A stretch of DNA of 64,000 nucleotides. Origin: Phycisphaera sp. Its GTDB lineage: Bacteria > Planctomycetota > Phycisphaerae > Phycisphaerales > Phycisphaeraceae. The stretch spans positions 1-64,000 of the forward strand of contig JANQPR010000258.1 of assembly GCA_028285385.1 (NCBI GenBank), in the 5' to 3' direction. The position numbers and the translations under genes were made by a program. Shown here piece after piece: positions 7,327 through 46,049 of the stretch. Every line of letters begins with the position of its first letter. Position 1 is the first letter of the stretch. The notes under the pieces are model-generated. The model searched no databases and had not been told where the DNA came from. It saw nothing but the letters and a program-made list of their open reading frames with translations.

Positions 7327-8358
7327 TCAGTGGTTTCGTAGCCGGACTGAGTCGCCGCGGGCCGCCGACTCGTACGCCGCCCACACGAGTTCTACCGTCT
7401 TCAGGTTGTCGCGGCCGGTGGTTTCCGCCCGCCGGCCGCGCAGGCCGCGGAGCAGGTCCGCCTGGCACGGCACGACCGACGACTGCACCACGGCGTAGCG
7501 CTGGTCGACCCACGGGTAGCTGGGTGGCGGGGCGGTGAGAGTGCGGGTCCCGTCGGCGGTGGTGATGCGCAGCTCATAGCCGGGTCGGAGTTCGAGCGTG
7601 CCGCGGTCGCCCTCAACAAACATGAGCGTCTGCGGGAAGCACTCGCGTTCGACCGCGTTGCCGGCGTAAGCCATGCGGACCAGGACCGTCGCGCCGGACT
7701 GCGCCCCGAGCATGGCGGTGGCGACGTCCTCGCCTTGGATGTCGTCGTGTACACGGCCGGCGCGGCAGACGACCGTGTCCATCTCTCCAAAGAGGAACCG
7801 CGCGACGTCGAGCGTGTGACTGCCGAGGTCGGCGATGATGAAGTGCGACTCTTGTTTGAGCGACGGCTGGTTGGCGAAGACGTTGAAGCCCGAGATGAAG
7901 TCGATCGTCGCACGGAACGCGTCGCCGATCTCGCCCGAATCCAGCACGTCACGCACTGCCCGGATCGGCGCCTGCCAGCGGAAGTTCTCGTGGACCAACA
8001 GCGGGACGCCCGCCATTTCGCAGCCGGCGACCATCGCCCGCGCCGCGCCAAGTTTGTCGGCCAAGGGCTTCTGACAGATCGAGGCGGTGCCTTTACTGCA
8101 AGCCAGCGCAACCAACGCGGCGTGCGTCTGTACCGGCGTGACGATGTCCACGAAGTCCAGCGATTCCTCGTCGAGCATCCTTGCCGCGTCCGCGTGGGCC
8201 GACGCCACCCCGAACTCGGCCGCGAGCGCGTCGGCCCGGCCCGGGTCGGCGTCGCACACCGCGACGCACCGCGCTACGGAGGCGTGCTCGCCCCAGCCGG
8301 CGAGTTGCACCCGGCCCCAGAAGCCGCAGCCGATCAGCCCGAATCGCAGTGGTCGCAT
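7327..8358 (-). CDS. apsD: D-apiose dehydrogenase (Gfo/Idh/MocA family)
   Basis: A 343-residue cytoplasmic NAD(P)-dependent oxidoreductase, last gene of the apiose operon; predicted to oxidise D-apiose to D-apionolactone. The Rossmann loop GLIGCGFWG is at residues 7-15. The family lysine signature appears as QKP at 96-98, HENFRWQ at 123-129, and the C-terminal domain begins around 130 with DLGSHTLD at 177-184. A longer frame exists upstream, but ATG 8358 places the Rossmann strand at the expected distance and lies 2 bases after the apnL stop. Gfo/Idh/MocA sequences alone are not substrate-specific; the apsD assignment rests on HENFRWQ-type similarity and on its neighbours apnL, apnO and oiaC. 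Confidence 0.8.
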   Translation of the reverse strand: MRPLRFGLIGCGFWGRVQLAGWGEHASVARCVAVCDADPGRADALAAEFGVASAHADAARMLDEESLDFVDIVTPVQTHAALVALACSKGTASICQKPLADKLGAARAMVAGCEMAGVPLLVHENFRWQAPIRAVRDVLDSGEIGDAFRATIDFISGFNVFANQPSLKQESHFIIADLGSHTLDVARFLFGEMDTVVCRAGRVHDDIQGEDVATAMLGAQSGATVLVRMAYAGNAVERECFPQTLMFVEGDRGTLELRPGYELRITTADGTRTLTAPPPSYPWVDQRYAVVQSSVVPCQADLLRGLRGRRAETTGRDNLKTVELVWAAYESAARGDSVRLRNH

Positions 8359-8360
8359 GG

Positions 8361-10163
8361 CTACGCCTCGCAATCGATCTGGAACACGCCCGGGCCTTCG
8401 GCCGCGAGCGCCCAACCGCTTTCGGTCTCTGTCGCGTTGCCGCCGCCGGAGATCCAGCGACCTTCACCCGGCGGGGCGCTGAGCCATCGGCCGTCTTCAA
8501 AGAGCGCGATCAGCCAGCGCTCCCGGCCGTCGCGTTCGAGCACCAGTGCCTCGGCCCACCCGGGAACGCTCCGTTCGTCACGTCGAGCCCGCACCGCGCC
8601 GAACCGCGTGATCGCCCTGACCGCAAGCCCGATCGGGTAAGGCCGGCCTGCGTCATTGCACAGGCCGGCCGGCCCGACGAGCGGCCCCAGGGTCACGGCG
8701 TGCGCTCCGGATGCGGCCGCGTGCGCGTAGGCGGCGACGAACCACGCCGCGGCAAACGGCACGCGCTGCCGTGGGTCGGCAGGCGGTGCCACCGGGTTCG
8801 CGTCGGGCGCGTCAGCGTTGACACTCGGCAGCAGCGTTAACGGCGAAACGGCTACCGGCATGCCGTCGGACATCGCGCAGGCGTCGCGCACGCAGAACGC
8901 CAGCCCGGCCGCGTTCTCCGCGACCGATCGGTCGTCGAACGCGTGCACCTGCGGGTTGGCGGCAAAAGCAAGCCCGTCGAAGCTGCCGATCGCCGGTCTC
9001 TGCCGGTTGAGCTCGGTGAAGTTACCGTCGGTACCGACCCAGACGGGCAGCGGCGCGGCGGCTTTGCGCAGCGCGACCGTCGCGTCCGGCGTCGGCGGCC
9101 GACCGCTGCTGCCGCAAGCGACGACCCGTTCGATGAGGACCCCCGCGCGATTTGCATCCTGGATCAGCCTCGTCAACAGCCTGGCAAGGTGCTCCGTGTC
9201 GGGTGCGGCGGGCAGGTTCAGCGCTAGCTCAACGCGGTCGGAGACGCGTGACGCCGAAGTGAGAAGAGAACCCGAGTTGGTTATCCCGTCAGCGTTGTCA
9301 ATCACCGCCGTTACTTCAACCCGGACATGGTCGAACATGGCTTGCTGTGCCCACGCCGTGGGTTCGTCCGACGGCCCGGTGTCCGGTTCCAGCGTGCACC
9401 CAATCCTTGGCCGGGTCGTCGCGGTTCCGGTCGCACGATCTTGCAAGCCGGGCAGCGTTGAGACACTCGCGGTTACTCGTGATGCCGTGGTCGACTCCAC
9501 CGGTAGCCGAGTCAACTCGACGTCAACCCGCTGCCGTACCCACTCACCGGCCCGCAGAAGCCGCGGTGTTGGCAGTCGTAGCGGCGTGCAGTACGTCTTG
9601 AAAGACAGGTCGGTCCAGTTGCGTTGGTCTTCGGTCTCGAACACGTCGCCGGTAAAGGCCACCCGGCAACGCACTCCCGTCGCGTCGACGTGCTCGATGG
9701 CACGCACATCAGTGAACACGACATCGGGGTGAACCCGATCGGGAAATGGTGTCACGGTCACGCTCCCGTCCACGTGCTCTGCTCGGCCCATCCGGCCCGC
9801 GACCGACACCGGGTGCAGCACACAAAGCCCGAGCCGGTTCACTGACGACGCGCTCCGCGCTTGCGCCGCGAAGTCGTAACTGAGGAGTCCGCTCCGACGC
9901 AACGTGATGACGGTTTGCCATGAAATATCGACCTCATCCCCGCGGCTGTGCGCGTCGAACGCGACCGTGACACCGTCTTCGCTCCGTGTTGTCTTCAGGC
10001 CGGTGATCGTCGGCTCGGGCGTGCCCCAGGACGCGTCGCGGGCCGCGGCGTAAATGCCGTGCAACATCTCTTCCTCGCCAACGCCGATGCGTCGCAGCGC
10101 GCCCCGAGCCGAGTCGAACTCGGCCCAGCCGGCCCCGCACTCGAGCCGCGTGATCTCGGTCAT
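8361..10163 (-). CDS. apnL: D-apionate lactonase
   Basis: A 600-residue soluble protein expected to hydrolyse D-apionolactone to D-apionate. It lacks a signal peptide. Signature segments of the ApnL family are visible: LGLCVLHPVSVAGR near 111-124, the TPFPDRVHPDVVF region near 138-150, and EDQRNWTDLSFKTYCTPL at 178-195. The C-terminal half (to residue 600) is beta-rich, with a TLGPLVGPAGLCNDAGRPYP stretch. The start ATG overlaps the apnO stop (ATGA), and its own stop is 2 bases before apsD, so all four genes are translationally coupled. The length is as expected for the family. Family membership is strong; the activity is inferred from characterised homologues. Confidence 0.85.
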   Translation of the reverse strand: MTEITRLECGAGWAEFDSARGALRRIGVGEEEMLHGIYAAARDASWGTPEPTITGLKTTRSEDGVTVAFDAHSRGDEVDISWQTVITLRRSGLLSYDFAAQARSASSVNRLGLCVLHPVSVAGRMGRAEHVDGSVTVTPFPDRVHPDVVFTDVRAIEHVDATGVRCRVAFTGDVFETEDQRNWTDLSFKTYCTPLRLPTPRLLRAGEWVRQRVDVELTRLPVESTTASRVTASVSTLPGLQDRATGTATTRPRIGCTLEPDTGPSDEPTAWAQQAMFDHVRVEVTAVIDNADGITNSGSLLTSASRVSDRVELALNLPAAPDTEHLARLLTRLIQDANRAGVLIERVVACGSSGRPPTPDATVALRKAAAPLPVWVGTDGNFTELNRQRPAIGSFDGLAFAANPQVHAFDDRSVAENAAGLAFCVRDACAMSDGMPVAVSPLTLLPSVNADAPDANPVAPPADPRQRVPFAAAWFVAAYAHAAASGAHAVTLGPLVGPAGLCNDAGRPYPIGLAVRAITRFGAVRARRDERSVPGWAEALVLERDGRERWLIALFEDGRWLSAPPGEGRWISGGGNATETESGWALAAEGPGVFQIDCEA

Positions 10164-10993
10164 GCCGTGGTGATTTCGCGGACCTGCTCGCGGATGTCGT
10201 CGAGCTCGAGCACGCGGTGCCAGTCGTCGCGGAAGATGGCCGGCCGGGCGCGTTGGCTGATCTTGTACGCCGCGTCGGAGAACGTGCCGTCGACCTCACC
10301 GAACAACACCGCCGCCTGGATCCGCAGGTGCCCGAGCAGGAAGTCCCGCGCCGCGTCAGCCGGCACGCCCTGTTCCACGACCCGGTCGAACCCCTCCTTG
10401 ATGACCTCCATGCACGTCTGCCCGAGCGTCTCTACCAGGCCGGGCTCCAGGATCGCCATCTGCTGCAGCGTGACGCGGTGGCTGCGCGACACTGGTGCGT
10501 AGAGGTCACGCGCCACCCGCTCGGTGAGCGCGTAGTCTTCATCGGTCCCGTCGACGAGTGCACAGACAATTGGCTGCGCCGCGGATACCCCGCCATAGAA
10601 GTCGCGCGTCGCGTCTTCGGTCGGTTCCCACACGAACAGCGACGGATGGCACGGGTGCGCGATTGCGAACGCGACGCCGGGGCCCCGGTGGACCTTGTCG
10701 TCCAGCGCCGCAGCTGGGTCGAGGGTAAGCAGCAACGAGCCGGGCTGCATCGAGCCCACCACCTCCTGCGACACCGACTCGAGCGCGACATCCGGCACCG
10801 CTAGCACGACCACGGCCGCGTCTCCGACCGCCTCGGTCAGCGGCGTAACCGATAGGTCGCGTCTTTCGAGGTTGGCCCGGCCGGTGTCGGACACCTCGAC
10901 ATACGCAGTGTCGTACGTGTCGAGGTCCTTCAGGTTGTCGGTGATCCGGCAACCCATCTTCCCCCCGGCCCCAATAAGTGCGAGGCGTGTCAC
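10160..10993 (-). CDS. apnO: D-apionate oxidoisomerase
   Basis: A 277-residue NAD-dependent enzyme predicted to oxidise and isomerise D-apionate to 3-oxo-isoapionate. It has an N-terminal Rossmann domain with GAGGKMG at residues 8-14 and a helical C-terminal domain of the phosphogluconate-dehydrogenase type (FAIAHPCHPSLF in the middle, then LGHLRIQAAVLFGEVDGTFSDAA). The start is GTG at 10993: the encoded VTRLALIGAGG fits the family N-terminus, AAGGAG lies 7-8 bases upstream, and the codon overlaps the oiaC stop (GTGA). The longer upstream frame is overlap with oiaC. Confidence is high because the same gene order is known from apionate operons. Confidence 0.87.
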   Translation of the reverse strand: MTRLALIGAGGKMGCRITDNLKDLDTYDTAYVEVSDTGRANLERRDLSVTPLTEAVGDAAVVVLAVPDVALESVSQEVVGSMQPGSLLLTLDPAAALDDKVHRGPGVAFAIAHPCHPSLFVWEPTEDATRDFYGGVSAAQPIVCALVDGTDEDYALTERVARDLYAPVSRSHRVTLQQMAILEPGLVETLGQTCMEVIKEGFDRVVEQGVPADAARDFLLGHLRIQAAVLFGEVDGTFSDAAYKISQRARPAIFRDDWHRVLELDDIREQVREITTA

Positions 10994-11814
10994 TGTGTGG
11001 CTCCTTCCGTGCGCGATACGACCGTTGATCGGAGATAGGTCCAGCTCTGCTCGGCCCATTGTTTCTCTTTTTCCACCGTGGCGGCGGCGGTCGGTTCCGG
11101 CGGGACCCACTGCTCCAATACCGCGCTGACGCACCGGCCCGACCGCTTGGCGGCTCCGAGTGCGGCGGCCAGATCCAGCTGCCCGGTGCCCGCCGGCGTG
11201 CCCTCGACGGTAAAGCCCTGTTGGTGCGGGAACCGACGGATCATCACGTCCTTGAGGTGGAGGTTGACACACACCGGGGCGAGCGCGTTGAGGACGTCAC
11301 CCAGCCCCTCGCCCTGCCCGAACGAGTTGGCGGTGTCAACGCACGCGCCCACGGCCGGGTCGTCCACCGCGTCAATAACTGATCGGAGCTGCGCCGCGGT
11401 TAGCCGGTCGTGGTTTTCCAACGCAAGAGTGACGCCGTGGTGATGCAGAGCGGGCAGCAGGCGGAACGCCGTGTCGACGACGGTGTCTACGTCTGGCTCG
11501 TGGCCCAGGTCGTCGATGAGGAACCGGAGGACCGTGACGCCTAGGTCGGCGGCGACGCGTACGCAGTACTCGGCGTGGGCCCCGGTTAATCCACGCGCAC
11601 CGAGCTCGAGTGTGATGCCGTGTCTTGCGGCGAGTCGCTTAACTTCTGCGAGATCGTCTCGCGCCGCGTCGGTGTCGTTGGCCCACGGCAAGTGATCGCC
11701 GAGTTGCACCCGCCTCACGCCGTGCGTCGCCGCCCACCCGATCACGCCTGTCGCGTCGAGCCGGCGCTCGGCGACCGCCCAACCGAAGGCGTAACTCGAT
11801 ACGCCGATCTCCAT
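10990..11814 (-). CDS. oiaC: 3-oxo-isoapionate decarboxylase (TIM-barrel, sugar-isomerase fold)
   Basis: The first gene of the apiose operon encodes a 274-residue xylose-isomerase-like TIM barrel. It begins MEIGVSSYAFGW and shows LALENHD, GACVDTANSFGQGEG and NLHLKDV, which carry the metal-binding Glu/Asp/His residues of this superfamily. In characterised apionate clusters this type of protein decarboxylates 3-oxo-isoapionate to L-erythrulose and CO2. ATG 11814 is chosen because it opens directly on the first barrel strand; no strong ribosome-binding site precedes it, so leaderless or weak initiation is possible. Alone it would be only a sugar phosphate isomerase/epimerase; the neighbours make the specific call. 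No kinase (OiaK) is nearby, which agrees with this branch. Confidence 0.8.
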   Translation of the reverse strand: MEIGVSSYAFGWAVAERRLDATGVIGWAATHGVRRVQLGDHLPWANDTDAARDDLAEVKRLAARHGITLELGARGLTGAHAEYCVRVAADLGVTVLRFLIDDLGHEPDVDTVVDTAFRLLPALHHHGVTLALENHDRLTAAQLRSVIDAVDDPAVGACVDTANSFGQGEGLGDVLNALAPVCVNLHLKDVMIRRFPHQQGFTVEGTPAGTGQLDLAAALGAAKRSGRCVSAVLEQWVPPEPTAAATVEKEKQWAEQSWTYLRSTVVSRTEGATQ

Positions 11815-13548: not shown

Positions 13549-14829
13549 TTGTACGTCGCCGGCCTTGGTCTGCGACCTAGCCCTCACGCTCTGATTCTTT
13601 GTGGCTTTCGCCCGAGTTCTGCGGTCGCTCAGCCCCGCGTCGCCTCCGTTCACCTGGCCCGAGATAAGCCCTTGTCTCCCGTGGTTCCGCCTGCCCCGCA
13701 TCCTGTTGAGGCCCGTCGGTCGCCGGCCGGTGTGGGCCGGGCCGTGACGCTGGGCGACGTGTCCCGCCACGTCGGGCTGTCGGTGGCGACGGTATCGCGG
13801 GTGCTCAGCGGCAGTCCGCGGGTGCGGCAGGCGACGCGGGATCAGGTGCTCCGGGCGGCGGACGAACTGGGCTACTCGGCGAACCTCTCGGCCCGGGCCC
13901 TCAAGACGCAGCGGACCGACATGCTCGGCGTCGTCTTCCCCGACATCAACAACGAGTTCTACCGGGAACTGCTGACCGGCATCAACGACGAGGCCCACGC
14001 GGCGGGGCGGCACCTGATGGTCGAGTTCGGCCCGGGGCCGCGGTGGCAGTCGCTTCGGCCGCAGGACTACCTGTTCGGCGGGCGGATCGACGCGTTGATC
14101 CTGCTGAACCTCGGCCTGCCCATGGACTTCCTCCGTGACCTGGCGGGGCGGGGCACGCCGCTGGTGTTGATGGACCGCCCGGCCCCCGGGGTGCCCGCGG
14201 CGACCGTCCGTCTGGAGAACGTCGCGGGAGCAGACGCCGCGATGTCGCACCTGCTCGAGCACGGCTACCGACGGATCGCGGTGCTCCGCGGCCCCGGCGA
14301 CAGCTACGACGCCAACGAGCGGTGGCGCGGCTGCGAGCGTGCCCTCCGACGGTTCGGGGTTGAACTCGACCACAACTTGATCTGGGAGGCCGGCTTCTAC
14401 GAGGCATACGCTTACACCGCGACGCAGCGTTGGCTGGCCGACCACGACGCGCCCGAGGCGATCCTGGCCCTGAACGATGCGATGGCGATCGGGGCGTTAC
14501 ACGCGCTGCGAGAGCACGGCCTCTCGGTCCCGCAGGACGTCGCGCTTGTCGGCTTCGACGACGTGGACTGCGCGAAGCACCTCGGGCTGACGACCGTCCA
14601 CTGCCCGATCCGACAGATGGGCCAAGCCGCGGCCCGGGCGGCGCTGAACCTCATGGCGACCGACGAGCCCGCGGCGTTCTACCGCGAAGAGGTGCTCGAC
14701 ACGCATTTGATCGTCCGCACCTCGTGCGGTTGCGTGCCGGACGACAACCCGATTTCACAGCGACCACCGATCAACGCGGTGTCACGCTTGGAGAAAAAGC
14801 ACGCACGGCCCGTTCGGCCGGAGGTTTGA
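13549..14829 (+). CDS. LacI/GalR-family transcriptional regulator
   Basis: DNA-binding repressor with the helix-turn-helix VTLGDVSRHVGLSVATVSRV followed by the hinge region, then a periplasmic-binding-protein-like effector domain (MLGVVFPDINNEFYRELL; LVLMDRP; PEAILALNDAMAIGAL; VALVGFDDVDCAKHL). The frame opens with TTG 13549, but GTG 13744 would start exactly at the helix-turn-helix as usual for the family. The 65 codons between are low-complexity and may be leader sequence; no ribosome-binding site decides. The C-terminus ends TSCGC, as in many GalR-like proteins. It precedes a run of secreted glycan-related genes and probably regulates them and itself; the effector is unknown. Confidence 0.88.
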   Translation: MYVAGLGLRPSPHALILCGFRPSSAVAQPRVASVHLARDKPLSPVVPPAPHPVEARRSPAGVGRAVTLGDVSRHVGLSVATVSRVLSGSPRVRQATRDQVLRAADELGYSANLSARALKTQRTDMLGVVFPDINNEFYRELLTGINDEAHAAGRHLMVEFGPGPRWQSLRPQDYLFGGRIDALILLNLGLPMDFLRDLAGRGTPLVLMDRPAPGVPAATVRLENVAGADAAMSHLLEHGYRRIAVLRGPGDSYDANERWRGCERALRRFGVELDHNLIWEAGFYEAYAYTATQRWLADHDAPEAILALNDAMAIGALHALREHGLSVPQDVALVGFDDVDCAKHLGLTTVHCPIRQMGQAAARAALNLMATDEPAAFYREEVLDTHLIVRTSCGCVPDDNPISQRPPINAVSRLEKKHARPVRPEV

Positions 14830-14852
14830 ATCATTACTGGAGGAACCCACCC

Positions 14853-15932
14853 ATGACCCCACAACCCAAATCCGTACAACCGACCACCCTCGCCCTGATC
14901 GGCGCTAATTGTTTTGCCGGGGTCTTGGCCGGCCCGGCGTCGGCGGCGATCGGCGAGATTAACTCGCTGGTGATTGAAGAACGCCGTTTCAACGACTTCC
15001 CCGGAACGACGCTGACGGTCACAGACAACGACTTTGCTGGCGTTCGCATTCAAGAGACCGACTTCATCCCTGACGGCGGGAACGACTTCGCAAATCGGCA
15101 TGTCGCGTGGCTGTCTGACAACAACGTCGACCGCTTTGCATTCCAAAACGGTGAAGGGTTCGAGTTCTTTGCCGACATCAACCTAGACTGGGGTGCCGAT
15201 ACCACGATCAAGGAGGCCGGCATCTACATGGACTCGCTGATCGCCGGCGAAGGCCAGTTCCTGCTCAAGGGCGGCGGCAACAACGAGATCGCCACCTTCG
15301 GCAGCTTTTTTCCGTTCACGAGCAGCACCGCCGATGATGACGACGGCGTCGAGTACAACGGGCAGACCTACAACAAGGACACGACCGTCAACATCGGCCT
15401 GCGCTACACCCCGGGCAGCGGGCCTTCCGCCGAGCCGGGCGTGATCGAGCCCGACGTCCGCGCGACTATGGAGTTTTTCGTTGACGGCGTCTCCAGTGGC
15501 GCGCGTGACATCACCAACAATGAAAACGGCGTTATCGACGGCAGCCAATTTGGGTTCTATGTCCAGACGCCCGGCGACTTCTTCGCCTCTCCGCCGGACT
15601 TCAGCGACGTTTTGTTCTCGAACGTGGTGTTCAACGTCCTCGGCGGCGACGTGATCACCGGCGACTACGACACGTCCGGTCAGGTCGAACAGGGCGACCT
15701 CGACATCGTCCTGCAGAACTGGGGCACCGGCACCTTCACCGGTGACGAGAACGCGTTGGTCGGCGGCGGCCCGTTTGACGGCACCGTCGACCAGAACGAA
15801 CTCGACGGCGTGCTACAAAACTGGGGCAGTGTCGCCACGCCGGACTTTACGGGCTCGGCCGTGCCCGAGCCTGCGGCGTTGGCGTTGCTCGGCGTCGGCG
15901 GGCTTGCTGCGCTGCGTCGCCGGATCGCGTGA
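14853..15932 (+). CDS. Secreted dockerin/PEP-CTERM protein
   Basis: The 359-residue product starts at ATG 14853, preceded by GGAGG with a 9-base spacing. A signal peptide ends near PASAA (about residue 31). Residues about 32-265 form a beta-rich domain that I do not recognise (GEGFEFFADINLDWGADTTI, FFVDGVSSGARDI), compatible with a lectin-like sandwich. Residues about 270-326 are a type A dockerin-like pair, and the protein ends VPEPAALALLGVGGLAALRRR. It is the first gene after the LacI regulator and probably in its regulon. Confidence 0.85.
   Translation: MTPQPKSVQPTTLALIGANCFAGVLAGPASAAIGEINSLVIEERRFNDFPGTTLTVTDNDFAGVRIQETDFIPDGGNDFANRHVAWLSDNNVDRFAFQNGEGFEFFADINLDWGADTTIKEAGIYMDSLIAGEGQFLLKGGGNNEIATFGSFFPFTSSTADDDDGVEYNGQTYNKDTTVNIGLRYTPGSGPSAEPGVIEPDVRATMEFFVDGVSSGARDITNNENGVIDGSQFGFYVQTPGDFFASPPDFSDVLFSNVVFNVLGGDVITGDYDTSGQVEQGDLDIVLQNWGTGTFTGDENALVGGGPFDGTVDQNELDGVLQNWGSVATPDFTGSAVPEPAALALLGVGGLAALRRRIA
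15660..15830 (+). repeat. Dockerin-like paired module, linker type A
   Basis: Same linker as 947-1117 (GTGTFTGDE, GGGPFDGTVDQNELD), also very similar at the DNA level. Confidence 0.8.
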
Positions 15933-19134: not shown

Positions 19135-21285
19135 ATGGACTGGAGGAAGCCCTTGTGCCTGATTCTGCGTCGGATTGCTCCAACCGCGGGGGCAGTGTGC
19201 CTGTCCGCCTCGTCGGCGCTGGGGTTGTCGTCTGACCTTTCCGTGGTGCCGTTCTGGGACGGCGAGACGTCCGAAGGCTTGCGCAACCGCTACGGCGGCA
19301 ACTCGGCGGTGAGCTCCGGCGTCCTCACCCAACGCACCGAGAGCGTCGCGCTCAACGGCGCGGCGTCCCTGGGCGTGGCGACCCTCGGGTCCATCCCGCT
19401 CAACGGCTCGGCCTTCACGCAGTGGACCCTCGGACCCATCGGCAGCACGCCCGGGCTGACCCAGGCCCGCGACCTCACGCGCTACGACGCCGCCGCGTTC
19501 TCGCTACGCAACGAGACCGGTGAGCCTTTCACCGTCACGTACGAGATCAAGGACGACCGCAACAGCAACGCCCACGTCGCCCGCTGGTCGCAACTCATCG
19601 ACGCCTCAACGGACTGGCAGACAGTCAACGTCCCTTTGGACCTCGGCGCACCGGGGTGGACCGTGATCGGCAACCCGGACCTCACACGCGCGAGCCGGGT
19701 CACCTACGGGTTCAGCGCCAACCAAGGCACGGCCGTGACCGGGACGTTCTTCATCGATGACGCCGTGTTCGTTGAGCCGGGCGGATCGGTCGATGTCGCA
19801 ACCGCGCCGGTTAACGTGCTCGCCGAGCGTGTCGCGCGTCGGCAGTGGGACGGTTTGTGGTCGGCGCGGCACCGGGACACGGGGTTGGTCCCGCTGCATA
19901 ACACGTCGAACGAGCGGGGCGCGATGAACACGAGTTCGGCGGTGCTCAAAATGCTGCCGGGTGCGGTCCAGCGCGGGTGGGTGTCCTCTGTTGAAGCTGA
20001 GCAACACGTGACGAACCTCGTCGCGTCGCTGAACACGATGCTCGACCAGGGCATGTATCTGCCGCAGCGCTACGTCCGCACGACCGACCTCTCGCCCGTG
20101 CCCGGGATCGGCGGCGAAGAGTCGAGCATCGACGCGGCGTTCATGGCCCTCGCGCTGCACCAATACAAGAACAGCCCCGGCGTGTCGCCCGCGTTGGCCC
20201 AGGCGGTCGACGACGTGCAGAACCGCTTCAACTTCACCGCGTTCAGCGACACGGTCGGCTCGACGCGCGGCTGGAAGTTCGCCTACCGCACCGACACCGG
20301 GCTCACCGACGGGACGTACAACAGCTACAGCGGCGAGCCGTGGGTCATCTCGCTTGCCGCCGCGCTCAGCGACGACTTCCACGTGCCGATCGAGACGCAG
20401 TGGAACTCGGCCGTGTTTCGCACGAAGGACAGCCTCACCGGCGCCGACGACGAGCACCTGGTCAGCACGTTCGACCAGTTCCGCCCGCCGTTCGTGCAGT
20501 GGCTGTTGCCGATGTTCGTCGACACCAGCGACCGCGGCCACGACACGTACCCGGTCCTGTCGATCGCGGGCAACCCCGAGGACAACGCCGCGGCGTACCA
20601 GCGCGACGTCAACGACTACTTCGCGTCCATCGGCCGGGGCGAGCTGCTGCAGCCCGACGCAGGCGACAACGGATTCGGCAACTACCAGCAGTTCAGCGCG
20701 TACATGGACTTCGGTGACGCCGAGTTGTTCATGCCCTGGGCAGTCACGCTTGCGCTGCTGGGCGACCCTGACGCCGAGTCCGCGTTTCGGCAGCACCTCG
20801 CTAACGACCTCGAGGGCCCGCTCGGCTTGGCGGACACGGCGTACCAGGCGACCGGCACCAACGAGCCGTACAACGTCCGCGCGTTCCTCGATTTCTGGAA
20901 CACCTCACTGTCGACGATGGCGCTCGTCGATCTGCTCTACGACGAGGCGGCTGGTTTCGCCGCGTTGCCCGAGGTCCGCGCTGCGTTAGACGTCGTGTTC
21001 CACCTGGCCGGCGACTACAACCTCAACGGCCAGGTCGAACAGGGCGACCTCGACCTTGTCCTGCAGAACTGGGGGTTGGACGTGGCGGCGAGTGGTGTCC
21101 CGACGGGTTGGTTGAACGACCGGCCACGCGGTGTGGTCGATCAGGCTGAACTCGACCGCGTGCTCCAGAACTGGGGCGACAGCGAGGCACCGGACTTCGG
21201 CGGCGCGAGCGTGCCCGAGCCGGGCGCTGCGTTTGCGATTTGGGCGGTCAGCCTGTGGCGCGGTCGGCATCGTTCGCGTTCGTGA
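19135..21285 (+). CDS. Secreted alpha/alpha-toroid-like protein with dockerin-like pair and PEP tail
   Basis: 716 residues. Residues about 35-220 include a beta-sandwich (TYEIKDDRNSNAHVARW, WTVIGNPDLT), and residues about 230-610 are helical with WDGLWSARHRDTGLVPLHNT and GGEESSIDAAFMALAL. These resemble glycoside-processing alpha/alpha barrels, but I cannot assign a family. Dockerin-like modules follow (about 626-682), then VPEPGAAFAIW; the expected RRR is replaced by WRGRHRSRS. ATG 19135 is given, but TTG 19153 is attractive because GGAGG lies 6 bases before it and it would start on the signal peptide. It follows the GH144-like gene by 65 bases, which suggests joint action on one glycan. Confidence 0.75.
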   Translation: MDWRKPLCLILRRIAPTAGAVCLSASSALGLSSDLSVVPFWDGETSEGLRNRYGGNSAVSSGVLTQRTESVALNGAASLGVATLGSIPLNGSAFTQWTLGPIGSTPGLTQARDLTRYDAAAFSLRNETGEPFTVTYEIKDDRNSNAHVARWSQLIDASTDWQTVNVPLDLGAPGWTVIGNPDLTRASRVTYGFSANQGTAVTGTFFIDDAVFVEPGGSVDVATAPVNVLAERVARRQWDGLWSARHRDTGLVPLHNTSNERGAMNTSSAVLKMLPGAVQRGWVSSVEAEQHVTNLVASLNTMLDQGMYLPQRYVRTTDLSPVPGIGGEESSIDAAFMALALHQYKNSPGVSPALAQAVDDVQNRFNFTAFSDTVGSTRGWKFAYRTDTGLTDGTYNSYSGEPWVISLAAALSDDFHVPIETQWNSAVFRTKDSLTGADDEHLVSTFDQFRPPFVQWLLPMFVDTSDRGHDTYPVLSIAGNPEDNAAAYQRDVNDYFASIGRGELLQPDAGDNGFGNYQQFSAYMDFGDAELFMPWAVTLALLGDPDAESAFRQHLANDLEGPLGLADTAYQATGTNEPYNVRAFLDFWNTSLSTMALVDLLYDEAAGFAALPEVRAALDVVFHLAGDYNLNGQVEQGDLDLVLQNWGLDVAASGVPTGWLNDRPRGVVDQAELDRVLQNWGDSEAPDFGGASVPEPGAAFAIWAVSLWRGRHRSRS
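21010..21180 (+). repeat. Dockerin-like paired module, linker type B
   Basis: GDYNLNGQVEQGDLD..LQNWG, a linker with GVPTGWLNDRPRG, then VDQAELDRVLQNWG. The linker type is shared with both copies in the 33871-38103 gene. Confidence 0.8.
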
Positions 21286-28675: not shown

Positions 28676-29088
28676 GAGACCATTCTACTCGTGGACATTG
28701 CTGCTCCGATGGGGCGGTTTGTGTTTGTATTCAGTGATCGCACAGCCTGAAGCAAAGCTCTGATCTTCCCCGTTTTATTGATGTGGTCGGTGCGGTCTAT
28801 GCGCTGTCGTGCATCAATTTGGACCCCGAGTATCTGCGCAAAAACTGGGCACGCGGCATCCCCGTATTACGGCGCCAAGAACGGCCACGTCACGATCGCA
28901 GCCGGGCAGCGGGTTCGCGCAACGCAGCGCTCGAACGCCATCAAAGGTAACTGTTGTGTGCTGAACCAGTCACCCTGGGGAATGTTCTAGGTAAGCAAGG
29001 CTCGACGCTTTGACGCATGAAGTCTTGCGGCAGTATCCGGTGCCGCTCCTACAAACCTTGTCCCGATCATCGGAAAGTGAGACCTATC
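28676..29088. other. Divergent intergenic region
   Basis: 413 bases between the divergent ECF sigma gene and the first large repeat protein. It should hold promoters in both directions. I see no clear coding frame, RNA gene or palindrome. Confidence 0.4.
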
Positions 29089-31383
29089 ATGTACCTACCC
29101 TTCCCCGCAACGATAACCCCGGGTGCATCTGTTCGCATCCAGCCTAACCGCGTGTTTGGTGCGGTTGGTTTTGCCACCGCGCTCTGCGTGGCGACTCCTG
29201 CGCTGGCGGCACAGCGCGAATGGACCGGAGCCTTCAGCGAGTTCTGGACCAGCTCGCAGAACTGGACCGCGTTCGACATCCCCGACAGCGACGACACCGC
29301 GGTCATCGGCAACGCCCCCAACAACGACGTCCTGCTCAACACCGACACCAACCCCATCGACGGATTGACCCTCACCGACGGGGCGACGCTCAACACCAAC
29401 GGACGGCGACTCGTGGTCGACAACGCGACCGACGACGCACCCCTCAATATCGGCGATGGGTCGACGCTGTTCGTTTCAACCGTCAACGCCAACCCGGCGG
29501 CCTCCGGCCTCGATACCGACCGGCTGAACGTCCTCAGTGGCGGAACCTTCGGCAACATTGATCTTTCCGTGATCGACGACCGACTGCAAGTGTTCCAGGG
29601 CGGCACGGTCGCGAGCGTCGGCACGATCGTCATCGGGCAGGGTATCAACCCCGGCAACATCGGGCTGATCAACGACGGCACCATCACCGCCAGCTTGCTC
29701 GGTGCCGGAACGCTGACTCTCCAGAGCGAAGACAACAAGACGTTCGACCTCGATGGTTCGTTCGGCGACGGCGTAATCCGAGCCGCCGCCGACGGGCTGT
29801 TCGGTGGGGTGGCCGCTTCGACCCTCAACATCAACGGCGCCCTCAGCGACAACTTCGATGGCACGGCCGTTATCGGCCAACGCGACGCCATGAACTTCCA
29901 GCAAGCCTGGGTCAACAGCGGCCAACTCGAGTTCAACGGCACGGACGCCGACCCGGCAACCCTGGGCGGCGCGGAGATGACCCTGGACGACAACACGGCC
30001 GGTGACGGCGGCTCGGTCGGCGACGGGTGGGTCACCGTCAACTCCGGCACCGCCGTTGTGGATGCCGACGTCTTCGCCACCGGCGGAACGTGGACCATGG
30101 CCGACAACACCACCACGACGTTCAACGGCGAGGCCAACTTCCTCCCCGCCGCCGACCTCGACCTCAGCGCCGCCTCCCTTACCGTCAACGTCAACGATAG
30201 TCTCCGGGTGCAGCAGTCCTCGATCGACCTCGACGGCACCGTCTCCGCCGACAACACGATCAACGTCAACAGCGGCGCGACGCTCCGCATCGACGGCGAC
30301 TTCAGCGACGCGTTTAACGGCACGCTCAACCTCGAGAACGGCAGCACCCTGACCCTCAACGGTGTCAGCACCTTCGCGGCCGACTCTACGTTCGACAAGA
30401 CCAGTGGCAACATCACCGTCAACATCGGCGGCCAGACGACCATCAATACGACGATCGACCTGGACGGCGTGGGCGCCCCCCTGAGCACGATCAACCTCAC
30501 CAACGACACCGCGAGCCTGACCCTCAACGGCGATATCGAAAACAACGGGGCGCAGTTCGACGGCACCATCAACAACCGCGGCGCGTTGACCGTGGCGCCC
30601 GGCACCGTCTGGACCAACGACGGAACGATCCACCTGATCGACGAGGGTATCGACCCAACCGTTGGCGGTAACGGCATGACCAACACCGGTGTCCTCCGCG
30701 GCGACGGGACGTTCAACGTGACCGTGAACAACGCCGAGGGCGGTCTGATCCAGCCGGGCACCGCCTCGACCGCCGGCCGTCTCGACTTCAACAACCCCCT
30801 CACCATGGGCGACGAGTCCGAGATGGAGATCGGCCTGGGGGGGGTGACGCCCGGCACGGGTCACGACCGGATCGACGCCACCACGCTCAACCTGGAGGCC
30901 GGTTCCACGCTCGACGTTGACTCGCTCGGCGGGTACCTCCCGACCCTTTACACGACTCACACCGTCGTCGACGCCACCCTGATGACCGGCGTCTTCAACT
31001 TCATCGACGGCGTTGTCATCGCCGCGACCGACACCGGCTGGGCGGTGACTTACGACTACGCCCTCGACCAGGTCCTTGTCCAACGGGCCCTGCTGGGTGA
31101 CGCGAACCTCAACGGCCAGGTCGAACAGGGCGACCTCGATGCCGTGCTCCAGAACTGGGGCGGACAGGCGTCGGACGGCGTGATCTCCTGGGTCACCGGC
31201 GACCTCAATGGCAACGGCCAGGTCGAGCAGGGCGACCTCGACGCGATTCTTCAGAACTGGGGCAGCCTCGCGGCACCTGACTTCACCGGGTCCCCGGTGC
31301 CCGAGCCCGCGGTCGGCCTGCTCGCCGCGATGCTGGCGACGCTTCGGCGTCGTTCTGCTTCGCGAGCCGCGACCTTCGGTTGA
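29089..31383 (+). CDS. Large secreted beta-repeat protein with dockerin pair and PEP tail
   Basis: 764 residues from ATG 29089, which places a signal peptide (VGFATALCVATPALAAQREW) near residue 40. It opens with REWTGAFSEFWTSSQNWTAFDIPDSDDTAVI, the start of the autotransporter-associated beta-strand protein type, followed by Asn/Thr/Gly-rich beta-helix repeats rich in INVNSGATL-like and LTLNG-like units. Residues about 670-726 hold two complete GQVEQGDLD..LQNWG units, then VPEPAVGLLAAMLATLRRR. It is paralogous to the next gene, with the same direction and domain order. It probably forms a surface adhesin or matrix fibre. Confidence 0.82.
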   Translation: MYLPFPATITPGASVRIQPNRVFGAVGFATALCVATPALAAQREWTGAFSEFWTSSQNWTAFDIPDSDDTAVIGNAPNNDVLLNTDTNPIDGLTLTDGATLNTNGRRLVVDNATDDAPLNIGDGSTLFVSTVNANPAASGLDTDRLNVLSGGTFGNIDLSVIDDRLQVFQGGTVASVGTIVIGQGINPGNIGLINDGTITASLLGAGTLTLQSEDNKTFDLDGSFGDGVIRAAADGLFGGVAASTLNINGALSDNFDGTAVIGQRDAMNFQQAWVNSGQLEFNGTDADPATLGGAEMTLDDNTAGDGGSVGDGWVTVNSGTAVVDADVFATGGTWTMADNTTTTFNGEANFLPAADLDLSAASLTVNVNDSLRVQQSSIDLDGTVSADNTINVNSGATLRIDGDFSDAFNGTLNLENGSTLTLNGVSTFAADSTFDKTSGNITVNIGGQTTINTTIDLDGVGAPLSTINLTNDTASLTLNGDIENNGAQFDGTINNRGALTVAPGTVWTNDGTIHLIDEGIDPTVGGNGMTNTGVLRGDGTFNVTVNNAEGGLIQPGTASTAGRLDFNNPLTMGDESEMEIGLGGVTPGTGHDRIDATTLNLEAGSTLDVDSLGGYLPTLYTTHTVVDATLMTGVFNFIDGVVIAATDTGWAVTYDYALDQVLVQRALLGDANLNGQVEQGDLDAVLQNWGGQASDGVISWVTGDLNGNGQVEQGDLDAILQNWGSLAAPDFTGSPVPEPAVGLLAAMLATLRRRSASRAATFG
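31096..31266 (+). repeat. Dockerin-like paired module, linker type C
   Basis: Two complete GQVEQGDLDA.LQNWG units with linker ISWVTGDLNGN; shares its type with 33522-33683. Confidence 0.8.
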
Positions 31384-31520
31384 TCGACCCCCTGAGTGCC
31401 GCGTCTCGCCGCGCGGCGCTCGGCTTACCGACCTTCCTTGGATTGTTCATCAGACCTCCCTAAGCGGCCGGCCGGCCAGCTCGCAAGAGATTCCCGCGCC
31501 TGAACATCGAGAGGCCCACG

Positions 31521-33809
31521 ATGCCCGACTGTATGTCCTCCTTGATCCGATCTGCCATTCTCCACCCTACGAAACGCAACAAGAGTGTGGCCCGGGGGCT
31601 CGCGCTGGGCCTCGCCGCCACGTCGCCCGCCGTTCACGCTGTCGATCGGGTCTGGGACGGGAGCACCAGCGACAGCTGGAACACGGCGTCTAACTGGACG
31701 CCGTTCGGCACTCCGACGGGGCTCGACACCGCGGTCATCGCCAACGGAGACTCTGTGGAACTCACAGGCAACACCGCAGGCATTAACGCGCTGACGGTCG
31801 GCCTCGATTCGAACCTGAACACGAACGGGCACCTGTTGCTCGTTGACAACGGCGGCGCAGCCACCACGCAGATCGTGACCAACGCTCAACTCGTCGCCGC
31901 CGCCGGGGTGGCCAAGGCGTTTGACACCGACAACCTCGTCATCGGGCCCACCAGCGGCATGTTCAGCGGCCCGACCCTCATCCACGTCGACCGCCTGGCC
32001 ATCAATGAAGGCACGATCGGCGGCAGCGGTCACTACATCTTCGGTGTCGACGGCCTGCAGGCGGCCGGCCCGGGGCTCATCAATGACGGCGTGCTCACCC
32101 CCAACTTCTTCGGGTCCACCACGATGCGTATCGAGGCCGGGCCCAACGCGACGCTCGACCTGGACGGGAACACCGGCGGCGGCCACCTGGACGTGGATGT
32201 CGACGGCTTCTTCGGCGGCTTCGGCGCCGGCACGTTGATCGTCGACGGCGTCCTGGAAGACACCTTCGACGGCACCATCGATATCGGTGAAGGCGACACG
32301 CTCGAGTTCACCTTCTTCTGGGGCCACTCGGGCACCATGAACTTCAACGGTACCCACGCCGACCCCGCAACCCTCCGCGGGGGGCCGGCGACTACCTTTC
32401 AGGACTCGACCCGGATCAACGTCACTTCAGGCGAGGCGGTCTTTGACGCGCGTGTGGCCATGAACGACGGCGATCTCGTGGCCGCCAATGGCACGACGCT
32501 CACGATCCGGGAAGACTTCAACGTCGGCAACAACGCCGGCTTCGACCTCAGCGGCGACGACATCACCGTCAATCTCGAGAACCAGGCCACCTTGCGGATC
32601 AACAGCGACAACGACCTCGACGGGAACCTGAGCGGGAGCAACGTGTTCAACCTCGGTGCACTCACGACCCTGGAAATCAACGGCGCGTCCGAGTCGGGTG
32701 CGAACGGCATATTCAATGGCGTGATCAACGCCCAATCGCTCTCTACCACGGTCACGTTCGACGCAGCATTCCATGTCGCGGGCGGTGGTCGATTCAACTT
32801 TGATGGGAACAACAGCGAGCTCAATGTCAACGCGGATGTCACGATCGATCAGGGCGACTTCGACCTCGATGGCGACGTTGGCATCAACCGCGTCCACATC
32901 GCCGACAACGCGACGCTGCGTCTCAACACCGACGGCATCGACAACGACGGCGTCAATGACTTTGGCGGCGAGCTGGACATCTGGGGCACCCTGCACACCG
33001 ACTTCGTGGGGACGAGCTGGTCGAATTCCGGACAGTTGCGGCTCAATAGTGGGCCGGCTTCTGATGTCCGGTTGATCGGCGACGATGTGATTAATACCGG
33101 TTACATTGGCGGAGACGGCGACGCCGTGATGACCGACGTCGCGATCCAGAACGACACCGGTGGCACGCTCAGCCCGGGGTACCAGGCTTTAGCCCGCACC
33201 TGGACGCTCGACGGCCTCACCGGCGAACTCGACCTCAACGAAGGCGGGCTGTTGGAGATGAGCCTCCTCTCTGAGTTTGAGCACGACCGCATCCATGCCT
33301 CGGACCTCGACCTGGGCGGCACGCTCAAGCTGATACTTATCGATGGCTACGACCCCAACCCGTACGTCGTGCACACACTTCTGACCGATCTAGCCGGCGG
33401 CCTCGGCGCGCTGGACGGCCGGTTCGATGCCGTCGAAGGCATCCAGATTGACCCGCTCTACGGCCTTGCGGTGGTCTACAACGTCGCGGCCCAGACCGTC
33501 ACCGTTCAGAAGGCCCTGCTCGGTGACGCGAACCTCAACGGCCAGGTCGAGCAGGGCGACCTCGATCTTGTCTTACAGAACTGGGGTGACAGCACCAACG
33601 TCGGTTGGGAACTCGGCGACATGACCGGCAACGGGCAAATCGAACAGGGCGACCTCGACCTCGTCCTCCAGCACTGGGGCGCCACCGCCGCCCCCGACTT
33701 CAAGGGTTTCATCGTGCCCGAACCGACAGCAATCGTGCCAATGGTTCTGGGTGCCTTTGCGGTGGCCGGTCGCCTCCGCTACGCGAATGCCAGATCCGTC
33801 GGTATCTAG
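31521..33809 (+). CDS. Large secreted beta-repeat protein with dockerin pair and PEP tail (paralogue)
   Basis: 762 residues with a signal peptide ending near SPAVHAVDRVW (about 41). It opens VWDGSTSDSWNTASNWTPFGTPTGLDTAVI like its upstream paralogue and continues with beta-helix repeats (TLDLDGNTGGGHLDVDVDGF, TVNLENQATLRINSD). Residues about 668-721 hold a type C dockerin pair, and the tail VPEPTAIVPMVLGAFAVAGRLR lacks the usual Arg cluster, ending RYANARS. It lies 137 bases after the preceding gene, so they are probably co-transcribed and arose by duplication. It ends 61 bases from the convergent fusion gene. Confidence 0.8.
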   Translation: MPDCMSSLIRSAILHPTKRNKSVARGLALGLAATSPAVHAVDRVWDGSTSDSWNTASNWTPFGTPTGLDTAVIANGDSVELTGNTAGINALTVGLDSNLNTNGHLLLVDNGGAATTQIVTNAQLVAAAGVAKAFDTDNLVIGPTSGMFSGPTLIHVDRLAINEGTIGGSGHYIFGVDGLQAAGPGLINDGVLTPNFFGSTTMRIEAGPNATLDLDGNTGGGHLDVDVDGFFGGFGAGTLIVDGVLEDTFDGTIDIGEGDTLEFTFFWGHSGTMNFNGTHADPATLRGGPATTFQDSTRINVTSGEAVFDARVAMNDGDLVAANGTTLTIREDFNVGNNAGFDLSGDDITVNLENQATLRINSDNDLDGNLSGSNVFNLGALTTLEINGASESGANGIFNGVINAQSLSTTVTFDAAFHVAGGGRFNFDGNNSELNVNADVTIDQGDFDLDGDVGINRVHIADNATLRLNTDGIDNDGVNDFGGELDIWGTLHTDFVGTSWSNSGQLRLNSGPASDVRLIGDDVINTGYIGGDGDAVMTDVAIQNDTGGTLSPGYQALARTWTLDGLTGELDLNEGGLLEMSLLSEFEHDRIHASDLDLGGTLKLILIDGYDPNPYVVHTLLTDLAGGLGALDGRFDAVEGIQIDPLYGLAVVYNVAAQTVTVQKALLGDANLNGQVEQGDLDLVLQNWGDSTNVGWELGDMTGNGQIEQGDLDLVLQHWGATAAPDFKGFIVPEPTAIVPMVLGAFAVAGRLRYANARSVGI
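33522..33683 (+). repeat. Dockerin-like paired module, linker type C
   Basis: GDANLNGQVEQGDLD..LQNWG, linker VGWELGDMTGN, then GQIEQGDLDLVLQHWG. The second unit has His in place of Asn. Confidence 0.8.
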
Positions 33810-33870
33810 GACCCGTCTCTGGCTCGCGTCACTACCGCGCAAAGGTCTTGGCGTGCACGGCCTCGACCCC

Positions 33871-36800
33871 TCAAGAGCACGTACGCCCCGCGCGTATCGC
33901 ACTAATGCCGCCGGTAAGTAGCAGCACCAGTGAAGTGGGTTCTGGAACACCAGCTCCGCTGAAGCTTGGTGCGGCAGTGGAGCCCCAGTTCTGGAGGACG
34001 AGGTCGAGCTCGGCCTGGTCAATCTGGCCGTCGGGTAGGTCGTTGACCCAGCCGTTGGGGACGCCGGTGACGGCAGTGTCGTTACCCCAGTTCTGTAAGA
34101 CAAGGTCGAGGTCGCCTTGTTCGACCTGTCCGTTGCCGTTGTAGTCGCCGGAGAGCAAGGTATTGGCGATGAAGTCGCTGAGGAACACTTGGTTGGGGTC
34201 GAACGCGCTGGTGGGGCCATAGCTGACGAGGAAAGACCCGAGGCCATCGGCGGTGGTGACGCGGTCGCCGGGCGCGGCGTTGGCGAACTGGCCGGAGATC
34301 GCGGTGGCCATAAGGACGTCGTAGGCCTCCTCGGCATCGGGGACGAAGCCGTCTAGCAACTGGATATCGAGCGTGCCGCCCAGGATCGCGTCCCCGTTGA
34401 CCGCGACGTGGTCGTAACCAATGCCGCAGCCGAGGCTGTGGTCGACGATGTCGATGAGCAGCGCGGCGTTGGCTTGCTGGCGGTAGTCGCCGATGATTGT
34501 GGACATGCCGGCGTCTCTTTCGGCGAAGCGTGGGTCGCCGGTAAACGGCGAGAAGGTTGCGCCGGTGTTGGTCAGGTCGCCCAGGAACTGGCGCATGTAG
34601 AACTCGCCGCCGTTGAGGTCGAGGCGGCCGCCGAAGCGGTGGTCGATGGTCTGCACGGCCAGGCTGCCGCCGGGGTTGAGCAGCGCTTCGCCCTGGGCTC
34701 CAACGTTGAGCCGGCCGTCGATGGTAGCCTCGGCGTTGGTGAGCACGTTGAAGATCCCGCGGCCGTTGGGAGCGATGCCGTCGCCGCCGAGGTGGAGGTT
34801 GCGGGATTGATGCCACCGCGTCGGGTTCTCGGGGTCCGCGCTGCTGAGGTTGATGCGCGCGGTGGCGCCGGCCCCTTCGCCGGCGACGACGTCGTGTGGG
34901 GTGACGGTCCCCCCGTTGAGGACGTTGATCAGGACGTCGCCGTTGAACCCCAGCAAAATGGAAGACTCGGCGTCCCAAGTTGAACCCGGGCCGTCGATCA
35001 CGACCGAGCTGGGGCCGTCGCGGCCGATGGCGGCGGCCAGGGACCGCATCGTGCCGCCCGTTTCGACCAGCACGTCGCCCCGATCGACGAAGAGGCTGTC
35101 GGTGCCCCAGTCTGCGCCGCCGCCGGAGACGCGCACGAGCCCGAGTCCGCCGCCGAGCGCGCCGAGCGTCGTGACCCGCGCGTAAACGGAACCTCCCGCC
35201 TCGACCGACAGCCGGCCCGTGCCCGACTGGCCGATCACCAGGTTGCCGTCCGAGCGGAACGCGCTGCCCGTGAAGAAGCCCGTACCGGCCACCGTGAGCT
35301 CGCCCACGCTGCCGACGACCGACCCCAGGACGGTGTTCGTTTCGACATCCACGAAGGCCCCGTCGTCGACCCGCACCTCGCCGCGCCCGACGTTGCCGAT
35401 AAACAACTGCTCGGCGCTCCAACTCGAGATCTCGCCACCCGGGCCCGTGCCGGTCACGAACACCCGGCCGCCGATTCCAGCCCCAGTTCGGTCGAGGATC
35501 GCGGCGCCGGTCTGCAGCCGCGTCCCGTCTTGCACGAACAGGCCGCCACGGATGTTGGTGTTTGTTGTCGATTCGAGCGTGACGCCTTTGCCGTTGATGC
35601 CGCGTTGCAGGAACAGCTCGCCGGCGTTGAGCACGAGATTCTCGACTGTATAGGCCGGGTCGTCGGCAAGTATGCCCGCCCCCTCGAAGACAACGTCGCC
35701 GCCGACGATCTGTAGCTGCCGAACCTGACGATCCTGGTTGAAAGACACGGTGTAGTCGCCGTTGATCCCGAAGCGTGCTGTATCGAGTGGGCTGGGCACG
35801 CCGACGGGGTCCCAATGGGTAACGGTGCCGTAGACGCCGCCGGTGGGCTCGTCCCACTCGTGGACGTCCTGCGCGTATGCGCTCGTCGCGATCGTGGCCG
35901 CGGTGGCTAGAACCACGGTGGCCTCCCTGGGCCGCGTTGTTGAGACACTGGTCCGCCTTCGTAAGAAGCATGCGCTCATGCCCGCGAGCACCCCGAACGC
36001 CGCCGGCTCAGGGACGACGTTTCCAACGAAGCCCGGCGCGGCGGTGGCGCCCCAGTTCTGGAGAACGCCGTCGAGCTCGGCCTGATCGATCTGGCCTTCG
36101 GGCAGGTCGCTGACCCAGCCGCTGGGGACTCCAGTGACGGTCGTGTCGTCGCCCCAGTTCTGTAAGACGAGGTCGAGGTCGCCCTGCTCGACCTGTCCGT
36201 TGCCGTTGTAGTCGCCGGAGAGCAAGGCATTGGCGATGAAGTCGCTGAGGAGGATCTGCCCGGTCGGAGCGGGGCTGCCCAAACCGTAGTTGACGACGAA
36301 GGAGCCTCGACCGTCCACGGTCGTCAGGCGTTGGCCTGGCAGGACGTTGTCGAAGGTGCCCGCCAGGACGGCGGTGGCAAAGATCGTGAAGGCGTCGTTG
36401 CTGTCGGGCGTGAACCCGTCGCGCAGCTCGACCGCGAGGGTGCCGCCCAGGTCGGCGAAGCCGGTGACGGTGAGTTGATCGAAGTCCTGGCCTGCGGTGC
36501 TGCCGGCCAACTCGAAGAGCAGCGTGCCGGTCTCGTCCTGCGAGTAGTTGCCGAGGATGCCGGCGACGCCCAGGTCGTCCGCGGGCGAAAGCGTCACGTT
36601 CTCAAGAGTGAAGTCGCCGAGGATGCGGTCGAATTCGAGTTTGCCGGCGAGCAGCTCGAGGTCACCGCCGCCGTCGGGGTCGTCGGGGTCGTACTCGCCA
36701 AGGAACAACGTGCCGCCGTCGAGCGTGACCCGGCTGACCGGGGCCACGGTGAGCTGTCCGCCGACGCCGAACTCGGTGCCGGCCGGGATGGTGACCTCGC

Positions 36801-41794: not shown

Positions 41795-42670
41795 TCAACA
41801 CAGTGAGATGCCGTGTTGCTTGGCGACGCCGCGAATGTACACGCCGGCCTCTTCGTACTCGGCTTCGGTGTCGAGGTGCTCGATCATGAGCGGCAGGTCG
41901 GCCGCACCGCCGAAGTAGTGCGGCAGGCCGTCGAGCATCTTGAGCATACCGGCGTAGTCGAGGTTTCCGCGGCCGGGGAGCACCTCGTCGAGCTGCACAC
42001 TGATCGACGGCGACGCCAACGTCAGGTCCTTCGCGTGCGCCGAGACGATCCGCGTGCCCAGTAGCTCCCGGCTTTCGTCCAGGAGGTGGCCGTGGTCGAA
42101 GTACGACGCCGCGTTGTCGATCAGGTTCGCCAAGTCGTAGTGGATCGAGAACTGCGGGCGGTCCACCGCATCGGCCAGCCGACGGACGTTTGCGCAGCGG
42201 TACGTCACGTTGAAAGGGAAGATCTCGTAGCAGAAGCTCGTTCGTGTCGGCTTGACCTCGTCGATGAACTTCCGGGCCATCTCGGCCACGGTGTCGAAGA
42301 ACTCTTCCGAGAAGTTGTCGGGGTGGTGGTCGGTCATCGACACGCCGGCCGCGTACGACCCCGCGACGTTCACGGCACACGCCGCGCCCACCTCGTCGGC
42401 GATCGTCAGGCACTCGACCATGCGCTTCTGGTTCGCCGCCGCCTTGGCTGGGTCCGGGTCGAGCAGGTTGTCCCAGTATCCCAGCTCCGCGAGCATCACG
42501 TCGGCTTCTTCGAACGCGGCCCGCACTTCGCGGAGGCGTGGCGTGTCGTTCACGTCGGTGGGTGGGACATACGCTGCGGCCCAGCCCTTGACGCGGTGGC
42601 GTTGGGCAAGGTCGAACGGGTCGTCCTGCTGAGTCGGGGCCGGGAAGATCGGGGCGCCCAGACGGATCAT
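41795..42670 (-). CDS. TIM-barrel sugar phosphate isomerase/epimerase family protein
   Basis: 291 residues from ATG 42670 with AGGAG 6 bases upstream. A xylose-isomerase-like TIM barrel: CYEIFPFNV, FSIHYDLANLIDN, IVSAHAKDLTL and MIEHLDTEAEYEEA carry the expected Glu/Asp/His metal ligands. The reaction (epimerisation, isomerisation or dehydration of a sugar or polyol) cannot be told from the sequence. It is the last gene of the minus-strand block that starts at 47720, 26 bases after the creatininase-family gene. Confidence 0.8.
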   Translation of the reverse strand: MIRLGAPIFPAPTQQDDPFDLAQRHRVKGWAAAYVPPTDVNDTPRLREVRAAFEEADVMLAELGYWDNLLDPDPAKAAANQKRMVECLTIADEVGAACAVNVAGSYAAGVSMTDHHPDNFSEEFFDTVAEMARKFIDEVKPTRTSFCYEIFPFNVTYRCANVRRLADAVDRPQFSIHYDLANLIDNAASYFDHGHLLDESRELLGTRIVSAHAKDLTLASPSISVQLDEVLPGRGNLDYAGMLKMLDGLPHYFGGAADLPLMIEHLDTEAEYEEAGVYIRGVAKQHGISLC

Positions 42671-42696
42671 GCGTTCTCCTGAATAGGCGTGGCGAT

Positions 42697-44971: not shown

Positions 44972-45008
44972 AGAATCCTCCTTGGGTTGCCGCCCAGTGA
45001 TCAACAAG

Positions 45009-46037: not shown

Positions 46038-46049
46038 GTGATTCGGGTT

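Follow-up and report, generated by a model that had tools for sequence, protein, structure and literature searches.

The window analysed here, a 64,000-nucleotide stretch of DNA from a Phycisphaera sp. (Planctomycetota) genome, carries a minus-strand operon running from 11814 to 7327, in which four complete open reading frames follow one another in the order oiaC-like, apnO, apnL and apsD. The features of the locus are as follows.

10990..11814, minus strand: oiaC-like gene, 274 aa; xylose-isomerase-like TIM barrel, probable 3-oxo-isoapionate decarboxylase
10160..10993, minus strand: apnO, putative D-apionate oxidoisomerase, 277 aa, GTG start
8361..10163, minus strand: apnL, putative D-apionate lactonase, diverged, 600 aa
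7327..8358, minus strand: apsD, putative D-apiose dehydrogenase of the Gfo/Idh/MocA family, 343 aa
12042..12067, minus strand: intrinsic-terminator-like hairpin, an 11-pair stem followed by a T tract

An earlier note on this DNA had described four minus-strand genes joined by GTGA, ATGA and a 2-base gap, and the reading frames and junctions are exactly so: oiaC-like and apnO share the 4-base overlap GTGA (10993-10990), apnO and apnL overlap in ATGA (10163-10160), and apnL and apsD are separated by 2 bases in TAG-CC-ATG (8361/8358), as read directly from the sequence. Its statement that the genes stand in pathway order is also right, with the order being reversed along the transcript. GC3 lies between 0.79 and 0.87 across all four genes, a coding-like range. 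The hairpin at 12067-12042 sits between the operon and the same-strand gene upstream, where it may bound the operon, but as a terminator it is no more than suggestive, since the scan yields fewer such sites than shuffled sequences do on average; a sigma-70 scan found no promoter for the operon. Given the family evidence for each protein and the recurrence of the same gene set in other phyla, both detailed below, the operon is not a chance arrangement.

Two further features of the window were observed outside the operon. Predicted exported proteins with a C-terminal dockerin-like repeat (GDYDGNGQVEQGDLDLVLQNWG) and a PEP-CTERM-like tail are strikingly many, and were located as follows.

2-1237, 14430-15932, 19135-21285 and 29017-38103: dockerin-like/PEP-CTERM-like exported proteins (predicted)

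The region 41795-58905 encodes a GH29 alpha-L-fucosidase, short-chain dehydrogenases, an amidohydrolase-type lactonase candidate, an FAA hydrolase, a 2-hydroxyacid dehydrogenase, an AraC-type regulator and an ABC sugar transporter, and looks like a set for non-phosphorylating L-fucose catabolism.

Sequence comparison argues strongly for the assignments of ApsD and ApnO. The window ApsD matches the PDB 5uhw series (5uhw/5uhz/5ui9/5uia/5uib) at E 6.7e-88 and 45% identity, with 298.6 bits for the best match vs 77.8 for the next PDB sequence, and it is thus closer to this series than to other Gfo/Idh/MocA enzymes; a comparison with its own genome gave 296 bits vs 55 for the next Gfo/Idh/MocA paralogue. 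The PDB title of the series reads only “oxidoreductase”, and we take 5uhw to be the ApsD of Agrobacterium, an identity that is supported by a close 5uhw homologue in Rhizobium sp. SRDI969, encoded immediately ahead of apnL in a cluster that also has an NCBI-named oiaX. ApnO combines an NAD-binding domain with a PGDH_C domain (PF16896, 1.8e-62, residues 122-275), and matches 5t57 at E 5.7e-71, a structure which, by its context, is presumably an ApnO. It falls in a 27-row clade (SH-aLRT 99) of ApnOs from OiaC-type loci, is at most 65% identical to the ApnOs of Verrucomicrobiota-type apiose loci, and is 43-47% identical to those of rhizobial plasmids, one of which carries an annotated oiaX.

The protein encoded at 8361-10163 is supported by its sequence as a diverged ApnL homologue, and is not a certified equivalog. 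Its sole curated match is NCBIfam NF049900 (D-apionate lactonase), covering profile positions 18-581 of 595 with 248 bits and E 1.7e-73, far short of the curated cut-off for an equivalog (750 bits). All non-rhizobial ApnL homologues that were tested also remain below it, at 233-350 bits, whereas the Rhizobium and Sinorhizobium proteins reach 1046 and 832 bits, which indicates that the cut-off separates the rhizobial group from the rest. The homology is full-length, 23 columns are invariant across a 25-row ApnL alignment that includes the window protein, and the gene stands beside those for ApsD and ApnO. The identity to the ApnLs of Verrucomicrobiota and Bacteroidota apiose loci is approximately 30%, and the window protein forms the longest branch in the ApnL tree, so that its placement there is unreliable. 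A PDB sequence search with ApnL gave no match. The predicted structure consists of a beta-sandwich (1-219) followed by a GH30/GH79/GH51-like barrel with a further beta-sandwich (235-600), the latter part resembling beta-glucuronidase 8b0d with a Z of 27.7; judged by this model, ApnL is apparently a lactonase built on a glycosidase scaffold.

The four genes recur together far beyond this genome. Among 79 loci with a relative of the window TIM barrel (80 when the one duplicating the planctomycete genome G314 is counted), ApnO was found nearby in 69, ApsD in 53, ApnL in 36 and a GH140 apiosidase in 32; 29 of the loci have the full four-gene set of the operon. At least one of ApnO, ApsD and ApnL accompanies the TIM-barrel relative in 73 of the 79, spread over about ten bacterial phyla and Archaea, and none does so in the other six (L071, L095, L096, L101, L102 and L120). 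The phyla represented are Verrucomicrobiota, Bacteroidota, Chloroflexota, Acidobacteriota, Armatimonadota, Lentisphaerota, Bacillota, Actinomycetota, Pseudomonadota, Spirochaetota, Planctomycetota and Bathyarchaeota. Two haloarchaeal plasmids (L035, 8034-11535, and L036, 4189-8831) encode ApnO together with an OiaK-like kinase and a RuBisCO-like protein, with no annotated ApsD or ApnL, and possibly reflect apionate use in haloarchaea.

The apiose module, which is widespread over bacterial phyla and often accompanied by a GH140 apiosidase, is rare in Planctomycetota. Within 392 sampled genomes of this phylum, the window's own included, an ApnL homologue was found in 11, a close TIM-barrel relative in five, and the four-gene operon, with the four genes in a row, in two, namely the window's own genome and G314. 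Another planctomycete, G200, combines ApsD, ApnL and ApnO with an OiaK-like kinase instead, and in the Phycisphaerae record KatS3mg104 (L117) the four genes are all present, those for ApsD and ApnO with interrupted frames. Neither an ApnL nor a TIM-barrel homologue was detected in the other sampled members of the window's genus, family and order. The highest identities are to Verrucomicrobiota-type loci (47% for the TIM barrel, 65% for ApnO and 57% for ApsD), and the window TIM barrel belongs to a supported 26-row set, mostly from Verrucomicrobiota and Bacteroidota, apart from other planctomycetes. Based on these sequence relationships, the operon was likely acquired laterally, from a donor that cannot be named. 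Nothing indicates a recent import, since the operon (GC 0.68) differs little in composition from the window as a whole (0.65). The earlier note knew of no report highlighting this operon in Phycisphaerae, and our literature search likewise found no paper treating apiose and Phycisphaerae together; as a claim of novelty this is weak, the module being widespread and all four genes being carried by L117.

The TIM barrel is the weakest of the four assignments, and OiaC is its best reading by context. The protein belongs to the generic family PF01261 (1.6e-21); an NCBIfam search returned weak epimerase matches and no curated model, and a PDB sequence search returned no match. The closest folds to its structural model (pLDDT 94) are the isomerase Art22 and D-tagatose 3-epimerases, with Z of 25-27, and a putative metal tetrad (E133, D160, H186 and E234) is invariant in a 35-row alignment. 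The context, which points to a decarboxylase, is of two kinds. In most of the loci the TIM-barrel gene is linked to ApnO with no other decarboxylase gene nearby. Further, plasmids of Erwinia and Pantoea encode an MFS transporter, a LerK-like and a LerI-like protein, the TIM barrel and ApnO in a row, together with RpiB; because the kinase and isomerase functions have genes of their own, the TIM barrel is the only candidate decarboxylase there, though it is 31% identical to the window protein and separated from it by a very long branch. Pulling the other way, OiaK and/or OiaX occur alongside the TIM barrel in six loci (L080, L086, L091, L094, L103 and L104) from Chloroflexota and Bacteroidota, which fall at two distinct places in the tree; Flexithrix dorotheae is one organism that has both. 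In such company a TIM-barrel decarboxylase would be superfluous, which counts against a simple OiaC role, and these loci are the reason why we infer this role and do not take it as given.

The main alternative is therefore that the TIM barrel isomerises or epimerises L-erythrulose or an intermediate derived from apiose, with the other three genes remaining ApsD, ApnL and ApnO, and that 3-oxo-isoapionate, a beta-keto acid, decarboxylates spontaneously or through another enzyme. Its fold neighbours among isomerases and ketose 3-epimerases, the full putative metal tetrad, the loci shared with OiaK/OiaX, and the presence of LerK or LerI in 0/80 loci would all suit such an enzyme. Weighed against the scarcity of other decarboxylase genes in its loci, and against the separate genes for the kinase and both isomerase functions in Erwinia and Pantoea, we regard this alternative as unlikely, yet as one to be taken seriously. 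With OiaC retained as the preferred reading, the names OiaC, ApnO, ApnL and ApsD proposed previously stand on different footings: ApsD and ApnO are supported, ApnL is a diverged homologue below the cut-off, and OiaC follows from context. A related set of alphaproteobacterial plasmids (L030, L031, L033 and L034) encodes an OiaC-related TIM barrel, in no case with ApnO nearby; a DAK-type kinase is found in three, and split transketolase genes, an SDR and a TRAP transporter in three, so these plasmids possibly encode another tetrulose or apiose-derived route.

Release of apiose could be accounted for by the genome itself. The earlier note was right that no apiosidase is adjacent, and a GH140 apiosidase is encoded on another contig (G000:C75:403-1380), scoring 383 bits with PF13204 vs a gathering cut-off of 26.5 bits and sharing 44-49% identity with most of the GH140s that lie within apiose clusters of other genomes. 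For uptake, the operon indeed lacks a transporter, as the note had said; its corollary, that one is encoded elsewhere, found no counterpart in the genome, where a search with the apiose-type ABC binding protein of Verrucomicrobiota gave no match (this search had no positive control, and one query was a 70-residue fragment).

LerK, of the DAK family, is the known next enzyme after L-erythrulose, and Dak1/LerK is the only L-erythrulose kinase family known to us. No Dak1-domain protein (PF02733) was found in the window's own genome, which is 97% complete, by a search that was positive in three control genomes, and hence the genome has no LerK and LerK-dependent assimilation is not encoded. OiaX (NF042437) likewise gave no match in this genome and was detected in five controls, and thus the OiaK/OiaX branch lacks its RuBisCO-like enzyme. 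The chain, which had been called complete without a kinase, is thus complete as far as L-erythrulose; the genome lacks the LerK step, and no transporter was identified. Of 15 isolates that carry the module, 0/10 Bacteroidota and 4/5 Paenibacillus have Dak1, and Dyadobacter psychrophilus and Larkinella soli are examples of cultured carriers that lack it; its absence from these Bacteroidota means that LerK cannot be the route there, and does not show a loss. RpiB is absent from the 80 loci, as are LerK and LerI, and the genome's two RpiB homologues adjoin ordinary housekeeping-type genes and are uninformative as a clue to L-erythrulose use. Transketolase has been reported to take erythrulose as a donor substrate (PMC9917271), which makes its direct use of L-erythrulose possible; as the sink in this organism, transketolase is a guess.

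Taken together, the four-gene locus is very probably a D-apiose catabolic operon ending at L-erythrulose. In the proposed route, the GH140 apiosidase encoded on the other contig would release apiose, ApsD would oxidise D-apiose to D-apionolactone, ApnL would open this lactone to D-apionate, and ApnO would oxidise and rearrange D-apionate to 3-oxo-isoapionate, from which the metal-dependent TIM barrel (OiaC) would remove CO2 to leave L-erythrulose; the further use of L-erythrulose would bypass the known LerK kinase. All of these reactions are ones that we infer, most of all the OiaC step and what becomes of L-erythrulose; the gene order, family membership, conserved synteny, genomic apiosidase and absence of the LerK and OiaX families were observed.

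That the operon degrades another branched or furanose sugar by the same chemistry is a thought raised by the position of ApnL, the most apiose-specific family, far under its equivalog cut-off, by the generic superfamilies to which two of the other genes belong, and by the haloarchaeal plasmids with ApnO and no annotated ApsD or ApnL; with GH140 apiosidases sharing the cluster in 32/79 loci, one encoded in this very genome, and an ApsD 45% identical to the 5uhw protein and far above all paralogues, we consider it highly improbable. A non-functional or decaying import, which the lack of ApnL and TIM-barrel homologues in the sampled genus, family and order and the long ApnL branch might suggest, is barely credible for four intact, tightly coupled frames with coding-like GC3, in which the metal tetrad and the conserved positions of ApnL are retained.

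The operon places apiose use in a planctomycete lineage in which it is rarely found, and by extension also the attack on rhamnogalacturonan II of pectin or on the apiogalacturonan of aquatic plants. More generally, a kinase-free four-gene module with GH140 recurs over many phyla, and its carriers often lack the known L-erythrulose kinase family, so that the last part of the pathway is a well-defined gap which experiments can address. Two points merit the attention of specialists: many carriers are without the known kinase, and in a few loci the TIM barrel stands alongside OiaK/OiaX. One conjecture, which we find plausible and would not favour over its negation, is that a major route for apiose outside Proteobacteria runs through the ApsD-ApnL-ApnO-TIM barrel module and feeds unphosphorylated L-erythrulose to a non-LerK sink (e.g. 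transketolase), or else that its TIM barrel carries out a non-OiaC reaction.

The founding apiose paper, by Carter et al. in Nat Chem Biol in 2018, reportedly describes D-apiose catabolic pathways that include an OiaC branch. The window locus shares with this branch ApsD, ApnL, ApnO and OiaC-type enzymes, and the lack of OiaK and of the RuBisCO-like OiaX; it differs in lacking LerK/LerI at the locus, any LerK-family gene in the genome and a transporter within the operon, and in its diverged ApnL. The oiaX-oiaK-apnO-ABC-apsD-apnL cluster of Rhizobium sp. SRDI969 (NZ_CP104036.1) has ApsD, ApnL and ApnO homologues in common with it, the Rhizobium ApnL passing the NF049900 equivalog cut-off with its 1046 bits, but uses a kinase and a RuBisCO-like decarboxylase in place of the TIM barrel and, unlike the window operon, has a dedicated ABC transporter. 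The Erwinia/Pantoea plasmid clusters place ApnO beside an OiaC-type TIM barrel, as in the window, whereas they lack ApsD/ApnL nearby, add DAK-type LerK, LerI and RpiB, and have the TIM barrel of 31% identity. Nearest by sequence are loci of Verrucomicrobiota and Bacteroidota (e.g. L043, L044, L046 and L052), which contain the same four genes, with an ApnL about 30% identical, and often add an ABC transporter and/or GH140. The pathway is thus a known one and the module is widespread, and what is new here is a member in an uncommon host.
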